Origin: Candidatus Zixiibacteriota bacterium
GTDB lineage: Bacteria; Zixibacteria; MSB-5A5; UBA10806
Direction: 5' to 3'
Assembly: GCA_020348065.1 (NCBI GenBank)
Contig: CP070742.1
Span: 3,322,345 to 3,366,493, forward strand
Length of the DNA: 44,149 nucleotides
The notes beneath the pieces are model-generated. The model made no database searches and had not been told where the DNA came from. It saw only the letters and a program-made list of their open reading frames with translations. A program made the translations under genes and the position numbers. How positions within the stretch are numbered: the first letter of the stretch is position 1; each line of letters starts with the position of its first letter. Positions 28,757 to 32,553 of the stretch are shown here, in pieces.

Positions 28757-28774
28757 TTATCTTATTTTGGTTTG

Positions 28775-28942
28775 TAGGTACAGAACATCGTTCTGTCCTC
28801 GTAGTCTATTAGTAAGCCGCCACCTTATCATTCCGGACTCGATCCGGCATCCATATTTCAGGACAACTGTAGACGGGGAGCTTGTCTCCCCGCAGAATGG
28901 ACACCTGTCGGTAGACCCCGCGTTTCGCGGGACCGACCTACA
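28775..28942. repeat. Cluster of three hairpin repeats between the Cys/His gene and threonine dehydrogenase
   Basis: Hairpins: ACAGAAC/GTTCTGT (28780-28796), CGGGGAG/CTCCCCG (28874-28892), and a two-part stem GTCGGT...ACCGAC (28907-28912, 28932-28937) enclosing CCCGCG/CGCGGG with a 4-base AGAC bulge on one side only. Flanks repeat GTAG or CTAC. They belong to the same style as the clusters near 30.0, 31.8 and 32.5 kb. No coding frame of this stretch looks real. Confidence 0.6.
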
Positions 28943-28955
28943 ATATCCTGCTACC

Positions 28956-29936
28956 CTACCTGTAAAGCGTTCCCTTATCCTTGCGCGCTTTGAGGTGCTT
29001 GAGCATATCGGCCGTCATGGAGGCCAGGTCCCACGCCGGTTTCCAGCCCCATTCTTCCCGGGCGGCGGAATCGTCGATGGAGTTGGGCCAGGAATCGGCT
29101 ATGGCCTGACGGAAATCGGGCTCATATGTAACTTTGAAATCCGGTATATGCTTCTTTATCTCGGCCGCCAGCTCGCCGGCGGTGAAGCTCATTGCCGCAT
29201 GATTGAAGTCGGAATGATGTTTCAGCGTGCCGAAATCGGCCTCCGCCAGCATAATGGTCCCGTTGATGGCGTCCGGCATGTACATCATGGGCAAACGGGT
29301 ATCCTCACGCACGAAGCAGGTGTAACTGCCCTTGTCGACTGCCTCGTAGTAGATGGCCACGGCGTAATCGGTGGTGCCGCCGCCGGGCAGGGTCTCGTAG
29401 GAGATGATCCCCGGATAGCGCAGCCCCCGGATATCCAAACCAAAACGCTTTACGTAGTAATCGCACAGTAGCTCACCGCAGACCTTGGTGACCCCGTACA
29501 TGGTGGTCGGCTTTAATATCGATTCCTGCGGGGTGTTATCCAGCGCCACGAAATCGCCCCAGACCGCGATGGAGCTGGGGATTATGATCCGCGCCATCTC
29601 GTATTTCAGCCCCAGTTCGAGGATATTGATGGTGCCGTTCATGTTGACGTCCCAGCAGAGCTGCGGGTTTTTCTCCCCCACGGCAGACAGGATGGCCGCC
29701 ATATGATAGACCGTGTCGATATCGTATTTCTTGACTATCTCCTCCACCGTGTCGATCTTGTTGACGTTGATAAAATGGAACGGCCCCGATTCTTTTAGCT
29801 CTTTCGACGGCTCGGTTTTGCGGCCGGTGGCTATCACGTTTTCCGCGCCGTAACGTTTCCGCAGTTCCATGGTCAGTTCCGACCCGATCTGCCCCACCGC
29901 CCCGGTCACCAGTATCTTCTTCATCTCTTTTTTCAT
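28956..29936 (-). CDS. L-threonine 3-dehydrogenase, short-chain (epimerase-like) type
   Basis: This 326-residue NAD-dependent enzyme oxidises threonine to 2-amino-3-ketobutyrate. It has the extended-SDR layout: GAVGQIGSEL nucleotide loop (residues 12-21), AAILSAVGEKNP, a Ser in IIIPSSIAVWG, and the YxxxK pair in TMYGVTKVCGELL. The diagnostic stretch RYPGIISYETLPGGGTTDYAV is shared with the Flavobacterium and animal type of threonine dehydrogenase, and separates it from UDP-sugar epimerases. The ATG at 29936 has AGGA at 8 bases. The expected partner, 2-amino-3-ketobutyrate CoA ligase (kbl), is absent from the window. Composition is GC-richer than most neighbours. Confidence 0.9.
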   Translation of the reverse strand: MKKEMKKILVTGAVGQIGSELTMELRKRYGAENVIATGRKTEPSKELKESGPFHFINVNKIDTVEEIVKKYDIDTVYHMAAILSAVGEKNPQLCWDVNMNGTINILELGLKYEMARIIIPSSIAVWGDFVALDNTPQESILKPTTMYGVTKVCGELLCDYYVKRFGLDIRGLRYPGIISYETLPGGGTTDYAVAIYYEAVDKGSYTCFVREDTRLPMMYMPDAINGTIMLAEADFGTLKHHSDFNHAAMSFTAGELAAEIKKHIPDFKVTYEPDFRQAIADSWPNSIDDSAAREEWGWKPAWDLASMTADMLKHLKARKDKGTLYR

Positions 29937-30306
29937 CTTCCCATTCCTATCATCAAAGGTTCATCATAATTTCAATTTGTGTCCCTGTTCGGTCAGGTCG
30001 TAGGCCGCAGGCCGTGATCTGACCGTTTAAGCCGTCGGATCACGTTCCGCCAAAAGCGGAACTACGATCCGACGGAACATTGATAATTCGCGCCTGTGTG
30101 GCATCAGGTCTCCGCACCTGACGCTTACCCGAGCCGTAGGTCGGGTTTGATTACTTCACAAACCCGACGCACCCGGAAAACCGGTCGGCGGAATTTAAAA
30201 AGACAGACCGTTTTAAGCAAGGGGAATAAAACCACCCCCCAACGCAACATTTTCCGCCCATAACCTGTATCTAATAACGGGAATCATTAGGAGAAGGAGA
30301 CTCAAA
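29937..30306. repeat. Hairpin-repeat cluster between threonine dehydrogenase and the VCBS protein gene
   Basis: Divergent promoter region with five palindromes. 29991-30024: 8-bp outer stem (GGTCAGGT, one wobble), inner GGCC/GGCC. 30034-30073: GTCGGATC/GATCCGAC outside, TTCCGC/GCGGAA inside. 30101-30124: GCATCAGGT/ACCTGACGC. 30140-30168: GTCGGGTTTG/CAAACCCGAC. 30173-30184: CCGG/CCGG. The first two share the linkers CACG and CTACG between outer and inner stems (first one read on the minus strand). A GGAGAAGGAGA ribosome site (from about 30291) precedes the VCBS gene. No gene is visible. Confidence 0.75.
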
Positions 30307-31749
30307 ATGGCCGCCTTTAATAAGGTTTTTTCAATAATAGTATTCTATTTAATATTCATAGCCGCATCGGCTTACGGAAATGTTATTTTCGTCGAGCACC
30401 TGATCGACGGCCATTCCTACGGCAACCCCAGCCTCGTTGCCTGCGATATTGATAACGACGGCGATAAGGACGTGGTGGGGGCGGTGATGGAATCCGGGAA
30501 CGTGGTCTGGTGGCGTAACGACGGAGGTTACCCGATTTCGTGGGAGAAGTTTGTTATCGATTACAATGTCCCGGTCACGTTTTCCGTATATACCGAGGAT
30601 ATAAATGGCGATGGGCACAAGGATGTTCTGGCCACCGCCTATTACGCCGGCCTGGTACTCTGGTGGAAAAGCAGCGGACAGGCCCCATATACCTGGACGC
30701 GTTATGTCATTTCAGATAATTTCGACGAGGCCCACGAGGTCTACGCCTGCGATATCGACGACGACGGCGATAACGACGTGCTGGGAGCGTCATCGGCGCT
30801 AAGCCGCATAACTCTCTGGCTTAATGAGGGCGGCGACCCGATCCAGTGGACTGAGTACGCTATCGACAATTACTTCGATACCGCCAAGTCGGTACGGGCC
30901 GCCGATATCAACGGCGACAGCATTAAGGATATCATAGGCGCAGCCATATACGGTCATGATGTCGCCTGGTGGCATAATGACGGCGGAAACCCGATTACCT
31001 GGACGAAGTATTTCATCGATGGCAATTTCATCGGGGCGCACCGGGTGGAGGCGGTCGATCTCGATTTCGACGGCGACAACGACATCGTCGGCGCCGGCTG
31101 CATTGGCCATGAAATCGCCTGGTGGCGAAATAACGGCGGCGATCCCATCACCTGGACCGAGCAGCTCCTTGAAACAGGTTTCATCAACGCCTGCGTCGCC
31201 ATGCCCGGCGATCTCGACGGCGACGGCGATATCGACGTGGCGGCCACGGCGCAGGGCGCAAACCAGGTGGCCTGGTGGGAAAACGACGGCAACGAGCCCA
31301 TATCCTGGACCAAGCATATGATTGACGACGTCCTCGTAAGGCCCTGGGGGCTGGATCTGGCCGATTTCGACGGGGACCTCGATCTCGATATCGTCTCCGG
31401 CAGCAGCCATATGGGCTGCAACCAGGTGAAATGGTACGAGAATACCGGAACAACTGGTTTAAAAGACGGAAACAGCTTAATCCCCGCAAAATCGATTACT
31501 TCTTATAACAGCCCCAATCCCTTCAACCAATCCACGAATATAATTTTCTCCCTGCCTGCGGAAGCTGGTGTAAAGATCAACATCTATAACCTGGCCGGGG
31601 GCCTGGTTTCATCTATGGATATAGGAATCTTAAGCGCCGGATCACACAAATTTTCCTGGAATGCGGGCGACCTGCCTACCGGCATCTATTTTTACAGCAT
31701 AAAGGGAGCCGATTTCAGCGGTAGCGGGAAAATGCTGCTTTTGAAATAG
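30307..31749 (+). CDS. VCBS/FG-GAP repeat protein with T9SS type A sorting domain
   Basis: This 480-residue secreted protein has a signal peptide (residues 1-23, ending AYG) and seven repeats of about 50 residues. Each opens with a calcium-loop-like DxDxDGDxD (for example DIDNDGDKDVVGA, DLDGDGDIDVAAT) and closes with a Trp-rich strand such as VVWWRNDGG; the fourth and seventh loops are degenerate. Such repeats build a beta-propeller. The last 80 residues are a sorting domain (NSPNPFNQSTNIIFSLP ... GIYFYSIKGADFSGSGKMLLLK). A surface or released adhesin-like protein is likely; the ligand is unknown. It stands alone between two hairpin-repeat clusters and is GC-richer than most of the window. 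Confidence 0.88.
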   Translation: MAAFNKVFSIIVFYLIFIAASAYGNVIFVEHLIDGHSYGNPSLVACDIDNDGDKDVVGAVMESGNVVWWRNDGGYPISWEKFVIDYNVPVTFSVYTEDINGDGHKDVLATAYYAGLVLWWKSSGQAPYTWTRYVISDNFDEAHEVYACDIDDDGDNDVLGASSALSRITLWLNEGGDPIQWTEYAIDNYFDTAKSVRAADINGDSIKDIIGAAIYGHDVAWWHNDGGNPITWTKYFIDGNFIGAHRVEAVDLDFDGDNDIVGAGCIGHEIAWWRNNGGDPITWTEQLLETGFINACVAMPGDLDGDGDIDVAATAQGANQVAWWENDGNEPISWTKHMIDDVLVRPWGLDLADFDGDLDLDIVSGSSHMGCNQVKWYENTGTTGLKDGNSLIPAKSITSYNSPNPFNQSTNIIFSLPAEAGVKINIYNLAGGLVSSMDIGILSAGSHKFSWNAGDLPTGIYFYSIKGADFSGSGKMLLLK

Positions 31750-31777
31750 AAAGTATATTTCCGGTAACTTCCCGTTC

Positions 31778-31963
31778 GGTCAGGTCGTAGGCCGAAGGCC
31801 GTGACCTGACCGTCGGATCACGTCCCGCCAGCATCGGGACTACGATCCGACGGAACTTTCTGATTATGCGTCAGGATGGAATGAAATGACATCCTGACGC
31901 TACCACGAAAGACAATATGCCCTCAGGATGTCTCCCGCCTTCGGCGTGACTCCATCCTGAGGG
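31778..31963. repeat. Hairpin-repeat cluster after the VCBS gene
   Basis: Four palindromes in 186 bases. 31778-31811: GGTCAGGT/ACCTGACC outside, GGCC/GGCC inside, a near copy of 29991-30024. 31812-31851: GTCGGATC/GATCCGAC outside, TCCCG/CGGGA inside, same architecture as 30034-30073 with a different inner stem. 31868-31900: GCGTCAGGATG/CATCCTGACGC. 31920-31963: CCCTCAGGATG/CATCCTGAGGG outside, CGCC/GGCG inside. The last may terminate both convergent genes, though no clear T run follows. Confidence 0.75.
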
Positions 31964-31975
31964 ATAGGTCAAAAA

Positions 31976-32446
31976 CTATACCCTCGGCAGCCACTTCCCG
32001 GTTTTCTGCCGGTATGATATATACTCCTCGCCGAATTTCATCTCCATCAGCTTCTCCTCGTAGCCCGCGATATAGTTATAGAAGATAAATATCGCCACCC
32101 AGAATACGAAGGAGATTATCGAGAGTGTCAAGACAATCAATGCCACGTAAAACAGGATGGCGCTCATATACAGAGGATGCCTTATATATTTGAACACGCC
32201 GCCCGATATTACTTTTACGGGACGATTCTCGCCGGCGATCACCTTATGACTCGCTGCCAGGAGGTAAAGCGAAACCGCGAAAATCACCATGGCGATAATC
32301 GATCGCACATATAACGGCACATATTCGGTCAGGCCGGTGGAGATATCCAGGAAAATCGAATCCGCGACCCATACAATCGCGAACAATCCGAACGCGATCA
32401 ACTGCCCGGCGTCGCCGAAGGGGTGTTCCCCCTGTTTTTCTTTCAT
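31976..32446 (-). CDS. ICMT/PEMT-family membrane methyltransferase
   Basis: This 156-residue protein has four to five hydrophobic segments and the family C-terminus: GGVFKYIRHPLYMSAIL (the RHPxY motif, about residues 88-93), then a helix pair, then EEKLMEMKFGEEYISYRQKTGKWLP. These residues bind S-adenosylmethionine in isoprenylcysteine carboxyl methyltransferase relatives. Bacterial members methylate varied or unknown substrates, so only a membrane methyltransferase can be claimed. Palindrome clusters lie on both sides, and it shares direction with the TatD gene about 100 bases upstream. Confidence 0.82.
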   Translation of the reverse strand: MKEKQGEHPFGDAGQLIAFGLFAIVWVADSIFLDISTGLTEYVPLYVRSIIAMVIFAVSLYLLAASHKVIAGENRPVKVISGGVFKYIRHPLYMSAILFYVALIVLTLSIISFVFWVAIFIFYNYIAGYEEKLMEMKFGEEYISYRQKTGKWLPRV

Positions 32447-32485
32447 ATTAACTTTTCGCCTTTAAATAAAATTGTTCTCTGTGGC

Positions 32486-32549
32486 GTCGGGTCACCCGAC
32501 CCGACACCTTTTCTTAATGAAGAGGTGTCAGGTGAGGCCACCTGACACC
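32486..32549. repeat. Two hairpin repeats between the TatD and ICMT-like genes
   Basis: GTCGGGT (32486-32492) pairs with ACCCGAC (32499-32505), and GGTGTCAGGTG (32524-32534) pairs perfectly with CACCTGACACC (32539-32549). An intervening ACACCT/AGGTGT pairing links the two units. The stem cores GTCGGGT and GTCAGGT match those of the clusters at 30.1 and 31.8 kb. They may act as the transcript end of the TatD gene. Confidence 0.7.
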
Positions 32550-32553
32550 ACCG

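Follow-up and report, generated by a model that had tools for sequence, protein, structure and literature searches.

Two-storey hairpins with a GTT foot as probable ends of transposase-linked REP elements in Zixibacteria

Why should a set of intergenic hairpins change its stems from copy to copy but keep the linkers between them constant? The question is raised by a stretch of 44,149 nucleotides from a Candidatus Zixiibacteriota bacterium (GenBank assembly GCA_020348065.1, contig CP070742.1, positions 3,322,345 to 3,366,493 of the forward strand; hereafter the window), in which hairpins lie in the gaps around the genes for threonine dehydrogenase, a VCBS protein, an ICMT-like protein and TatD. 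A sequence-only reading of the window had seen about a dozen palindromes there and proposed that they are kept for their folded shape, like repetitive extragenic palindromes (REPs) and their REP-associated tyrosine transposases (RAYTs). Our count is 13 hairpins in the non-coding gaps of window positions 28774-32552, and the proposal is supported by 57 genome-wide model matches, an intergenic bias and a clade of RAYT genes flanked by the same hairpins. Very probably, the two-part units among these hairpins form the ends of a single-strand DNA element driven by a RAYT, and where they stand in convergent pairs they represent copies of that element without the gene (REPINs, REP doublets). We assign them to a Zixibacteria RAYT system because of paired change in the stems, copy number, convergent pairing and hairpins linked to one RAYT clade. 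Zixibacteria are a poorly studied phylum, and the open-access literature yielded no paper joining them with a tyrosine transposase or with extragenic palindromes.

The four two-part units of the window, read on their proper strands, share the layout GTT-[10-bp outer arm]-GTA-[inner hairpin]-GT-[outer arm] and form one family whose strands alternate. The first REPIN consists of a type I half at 29987..30028 (+; GTT foot, outer arm CGGTCAGGTC, loop GTA/GT, inner hairpin GGCC-GCA-GGCC) and a type II half at 30029..30078 (-; GTT foot, outer arm CCGTCGGATC, inner hairpin GTTCCGC/GCGGAAC), and the second of a type I half at 31774..31815 (+) and a type II half at 31807..31856 (-). In this order the halves score 65.4, 59, 66.7 and 61.1 bits with our covariance model R1, and all of them fold as single-stranded DNA far better than dinucleotide shuffles (z -4.7, -7.3, -6.2 and -6.2). 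The CACG and CTACG linkers that had been described as constant in the four units correspond to the GTA/GT internal loop plus its closing pair; the GTAG inside the units is a linker of this loop, and the foot is GTT. The impression of a single hairpin family holds for these four units and fails for the whole set, which is a mixture of at least four REP families within the interval.

The genome search with R1 (model built from 8 units, E <= 1) gave 57 matches in the 3.74-Mb chromosome, of which 56 copies were scored in fetched loci, one antisense duplicate being dropped. In loci that are 85% coding, crude open reading frames (ORFs) cover less than half of the sequence in 50 of the 56 copies, so that, as in a REPtron, a short palindrome is present in many, mostly intergenic copies. 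Inverted doublets are the unit, as in REPINs: 42 of the 56 halves form 21 convergent pairs (within 60 bp, all + then -) with the feet outermost, and one -/+ pair is the only other case of copies lying within 200 bp of each other. On the 5' side of the GTT foot T is enriched at -5 (40/56) and -6 (33/56), and the copies are AT-rich at +1 to +4 past the hairpin, a possible insertion or cutting preference.

That both arms change together, as the sequence-only reading had it, is borne out at this larger scale. The 8-sequence seed contains 14 double-change cells, compared with 5.6 after shuffling and 0 in slid controls; in its 7 distinct sequences all 16 pairs are kept in every one, and 6 pairs are changed on both sides. 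When 83 matches (75 distinct rows) are aligned with a model that scores sequence only and does not reward pairing, 96.6% of the cells are still paired and 104 are double changes. Shuffles give 33.0 +/- 3.9 double changes and slid partners never more than 9; the model-fitted alignment agrees. Over the 56 copies the outer arms make 521 Watson-Crick and 15 G-T pairs in 560 cells (35/56 arms perfect), and each position of the GTT foot is kept in 54-55 copies. The inner parts comprise 41 different sequences, yet their stems reach at least 4 bp in 36 copies, where shuffled inner parts would give about 3.6.

Could the hairpins act on RNA instead, as terminators or stabilisers of mRNA 3' ends that are selected in transcripts and owe nothing to transposase spread? 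The 31 non-coding clusters fall into 10 convergent, 15 codirectional and 6 divergent gaps, and the 10 of 31 in convergent gaps exceed the length expectation (4,022 of 40,453 sampled intergenic bases), which, together with the T-rich tails at hairpins 32486-32505 and 32524-32549, would suit such a role. However, the 7 terminator-like sites include no nested unit, the first window pair sits between divergent genes (29936 and 30307), no Rfam family matched in a search of the window, and in many genomes copies lie right beside RAYTs of one clade. We therefore regard a purely RNA-level origin as very unlikely.

This association with a transposase came to light in two relatives, where nested hairpins lie directly on both sides of a RAYT gene. 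A protein search with that RAYT over 78 related genomes (the window's own included) retrieved 15 loci of one clade, here called the GTT clade. All 15 have an R1 match near the RAYT gene, and in 11 matches lie on both sides (as we read the coordinates); among 30 loci of a clade whose hairpins have a GTAG foot there is one match, a weak one located at a neighbouring RAYT of a GTG-foot clade. All 15 members match NF047646 (the REP-associated tyrosine transposase model) and carry the H-x-H motif, and the RAYT fold may be taken as settled by the profile match to their sole relative in the PDB, the E. coli TnpA-REP (4ER8, E 3.4e-12). The window's own genome has 8 Pfam matches to Y1 transposases (11-12 by protein search). 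Its member of the GTT clade, at 2861530-2862002, is flanked by nested hairpins at 2861482-2861523 (+) and 2862007-2862046 (-) and is split over two frames, so the transposase gene that the sequence-only reading had suggested looking for is present in frame-broken form. Judged from sequence, the split may reflect a true pseudogene, a sequencing indel or a (programmed) frameshift. As in a REPtron, an HUH-motif RAYT is flanked by the same element that is dispersed in its genome; as in a TIRtron, the terminal repeats of the RAYT gene are of a non-GTAG type and have dispersed copies.

Among the best 80 of 551 named RAYT relatives, a list from which entries for the window's own genome or its close neighbours may be missing, only three (L165/L138, L166/L148 and L167/L146) reach at least 45% identity over full length; they come from metagenome-assembled genomes of Candidatus Zixiibacteriota or candidate division GN15. 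Scanning 36 loci of named relatives, a few of them Zixibacteria, showed a hairpin on both sides in 18, mostly a one-storey one. RAYT relatives in other phyla (L169, L171, L173, L175, L178, L189, L191, L195) are flanked by such one-storey hairpins, several of them with a GTCAGG or GTCA(C/T)GG core, which suggests a wide group of non-GTAG RAYTs.

The two storeys of the hairpin behave differently when the left and right ends of an element are compared. In nine loci of the GTT clade that have both ends, identity between the ends is 91% for the outer arms and 55% for the inner parts (50% when shuffled). The corresponding figures for the GTAG-GTCGGGT clade (11 loci) are 100%, 54% and 52%; only L109 departs from this, with inner parts 94% alike. 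That inner parts of the two ends are no more alike than shuffled ones would be expected if the arms were kept complementary not by selection for pairing but by palindrome self-correction during replication, i.e. template switching between arms. The wholesale replacement of inner hairpins on retained outer arms points in the same direction: at the orthologous window site, the GTAG (GTAGGTCGGGTT) element of the sister species G001 bears a long inner hairpin that is absent from G000. Yet a whole class shares the same outer stem, foot and internal loop, the loop staying unpaired and uncorrected, and the link with one RAYT clade would go unexplained. We thus consider self-correction unlikely as the full account of the co-change, although it could supply the mutational route.

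The elements of the GTT clade also differ from classical REPs in what their transposase would read. In E. coli TnpA-REP, GTAG is contacted by Q95, E100, H101 and R104 and by the C-terminal G160/E161 (PMC8266576). The GTAG clade retains these features nearly throughout (Q95 30/30, D/E100 30/30, H101 29/30, R104 30/30, GE-like tail 30/30), and the GTT clade does not: Q95 is found in 2/15, H101 in 0/15, R104 in 0/15 (alignment A2) and a GE tail in 1/15 (loose pattern), with R100 in 14/15. By this comparison, the GTAG-reading residues are replaced in the GTT clade to match a non-GTAG foot. Foot labels mapped on a tree of 69 RAYTs require 7 changes, against 20.5 when shuffled (0/200 as low). The idea that all hairpins share a GTAG foot was ruled out, GTT being constant and the linker variable in the clade's hairpins elsewhere. 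A related suggestion, that the internal GTAG is the foot and that the GTAG-reading RAYT at 2152827-2153306 moves all the repeats, draws on the position of GTAG directly 5' of the inner stem in this genus and on the GTCRGG shared by the outer stems with the GTAG-foot family. It can hardly be right: other genomes with this clade retain GTT and the outer stem but have TTAG, CTAA, CTTA, TTG or CTG as the linker, and RAYT loci of the L015 type have no nested hairpins beside the gene.

The two halves of each pair are unlike, and this bears on how the element may fold. Among the 21 pairs of the window's genome the outer arms are identical in none (3.2 expected on random re-pairing; 86/5000 as low), and no pair has an inner part common to both halves. 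Because the halves differ, the predicted fold of the single-stranded DNA favours two local hairpins over the cross-paired form, and does so in 19 of the 21 pairs. The mean difference is -8.6 kcal/mol when the natural spacers are kept and -9.0 when one fixed spacer is used; halves re-paired at random give -1.2 kcal/mol, with 0/300 permutations as low, a test weakened by the relatedness of the copies. Folding without constraints and with natural spacers leaves 14 of 21 pairs free of cross pairs, and the RAYT-flanking pairs of the GTT clade show the same sign in 7 of 10. The pairing of two ends into one long hairpin, as known from REPINs, is thus not what is predicted for these elements. A legend to Fig. 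S11 in PMC3116915 proposes that REPINs move as a two-hairpin 'clover' and are silent as a long hairpin, and the unlike halves offer a natural test of that proposal.

How would such an element be handled? By analogy with E. coli TnpA-REP, the Y1 HUH transposase would bind the folded single strand via the foot, the lower stem and the mid-stem irregularity, cut beside the hairpin by its tyrosine and rejoin the strand elsewhere. The GTT foot is the candidate guide, followed by the 10-bp outer stem and the fixed loop (5' GTA, 3' GT), whereas the inner hairpin would have to pair but could have almost any sequence; the unlike halves would keep the element in its two-hairpin form. The GTA/GT loop is placed as the mid-stem bulge of the E. 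coli REP, which is described as required and touched by the protein, the upper loop being structural only (PMC8266576). The constant linkers and changing stems may then be explained if the transposase reads the internal loop, whereas the stem above serves for structure alone. Binding, cutting, movement and the role of the halves in the two-hairpin form are what we infer from these comparisons.

Several observations weigh against the REPIN interpretation. Mobility is deduced, no movement having been observed, and the nested family may be immobile now, because the only RAYT of the clade found in the genome is frame-broken. The copies share descent, so the shuffle and permutation counts do not represent independent events. 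The expectation that copies lie only between genes holds for the 50 mentioned above and fails, strictly taken, for the 6 of 56 that overlap crude ORFs by at least half. Finally, the GTT foot is not absolute, since L148 has GTA-G, L143 has GTG and L146 has lost GTT.

A further, joint proposal is put forward with more doubt than trust: that the foot codes of the clades (GTAG, GTT, GTG) are set by a short motif after W94, and that the GTT-clade ends are kept unlike by selection, giving two readable hairpins. If true, GTT-clade elements would be naturally 'clover-locked' REPINs that avoid one long silent hairpin. RAYT specificity has so far been studied mainly for GTAG feet; Zixibacteria offer clades side by side with different feet and matching protein changes, and the recognition code is therefore testable by swapping.

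The sister species G001 has about 20 nested copies. Its best match to the GTT-clade RAYT of the window's genome (L153/L134) is accompanied by GTG-foot hairpins instead. Both halves of the first window pair are present at the orthologous G001 site, where an extra GTG-foot hairpin (L273:3720-3770, compared with window 30080-30098) adjoins the pair. The gap orthologous to the pair at 182139-182220 (L246; flanks 83% and 81% identical) has no nested hairpin. For the second window pair synteny is broken, with neither an ICMT nor a TatD homologue in the fetched G001 stretch; L262 has no syntenic flank pair in G001, and L256 has the right flank only, with no R1 match in L311.

The remaining hairpins of the window belong to other families. 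The GTAG-foot REP at 30136..30168 (+; GTAGGTCGGGTTT...AAACCCGAC), which has the GT[AG]G foot of a REPtron that the nested family lacks, belongs to the RAYT at genome 2152827-2153306: its foot and outer stem recur in the GTAGGTCGGGTT hairpins on both sides of that gene and beside its clade in other genomes (of 30 loci, 26 have a GTRG-foot hairpin on at least one flank and 23 on both). GTAG-foot hairpins are enriched in the genome (33 feet among strong hairpins of sampled stretches, 1.0 expected from the 4-mer frequency), and GTAGGTCRGGW occurs 94 times versus 7 for the reversed pattern. Three more GTAG-foot hairpins, to which no RAYT is assigned, lie at 28774..28798 (+), 28869..28892 (+; GTAGACGGGGAG..CTCCCCG) and 28907..28941 (-; two-part, GTAGGTCGGTCCCGCG...). 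The hairpin at 31868..31903 (-; GCGTCAGGATG...CATCCTGACGC, GTAG on the - strand) is, from its stem, possibly related to one adjoining a long RAYT in G007 (similar stem by L102_2212/L131_3749); that at 31920..31963 (no strand assigned; CCCTCAGGATG...CATCCTGAGGG with an inner hairpin) falls in the same group and has the stem CCTCAGGATG in common with the hairpin adjoining L102_2212. GTG feet are found at 30098..30124 (+; GTG-GCATCAGGT...ACCTGACGC, stem perfect in G001), 32481..32508 (+; T-rich tail) and 32524..32552 (-; GGTGTCAGGTGAGGCCACCTGACACC), the last two matching the GTG + CTGTCGGGT-type hairpins that flank the RAYTs at genome 2151501-2151899 and 2161929-2162378. Elsewhere in the genome, a GTAG hairpin (L010:4352) lies within the coding frame of a RAYT at 2593088-2593645 (L010:4088-4645), resembling an in-frame REP insertion reported for subclass 2.4, and a RAYT at about 1105960-1106860 (L009:3961-4853) is flanked by alternating GTAGCCGGGGTC hairpin arrays. 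The VCBS-type gene at window 30307-31749 is made of 153-bp (51-residue) repeats.

Set against known systems, the nested family resembles the REP-RAYT systems of E. coli and Pseudomonas (REPtron; bacterial interspersed mosaic element, BIME; REPIN) in its intergenic palindromes flanking a RAYT, inverted doublets, irregular mid-stem and free upper stem, and departs from them in having a GTT foot rather than GTAG and in the replaced GTAG-reading residues and GE tail. Pseudomonas GI REPINs have two invariant identical ends that form a long hairpin (PMC3116915), whereas the Zixibacteria halves differ. The GTAG-3 and GTAG-14 REP families likewise have non-complementary bases between the stem and a self-complementary loop, but on a GTAG foot. 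The TIRYT/TIRtron elements (Di Nocera 2013, PMC3733652), compared here by their description, are RAYT-like genes with non-GTAG terminal repeats, some of them described as double palindromic and as having dispersed copies; the GGGGWSAS motif of some of them is not in the consensus here. TnpA-Y1 subclass 2.6 (Quentin 2018, PMC6006769), likewise compared by description, has flanking structures without GT[AG]G and a guide that is not conserved, and the nearest relatives outside Zixibacteria, among the best 80 of 551, are largely Bacteroidetes; the secondary structure described for that subclass is weaker, and here it is strong. REPs, BIMEs, REPINs and RAYTs, including RAYTs with non-GTAG and 'double palindromic' terminal repeats, are already known; what is new is a GTT-footed family of two-storey hairpins in Zixibacteria, the guide residues that have changed to match, and the fact that two separate hairpins are energetically preferred in the predicted folds.

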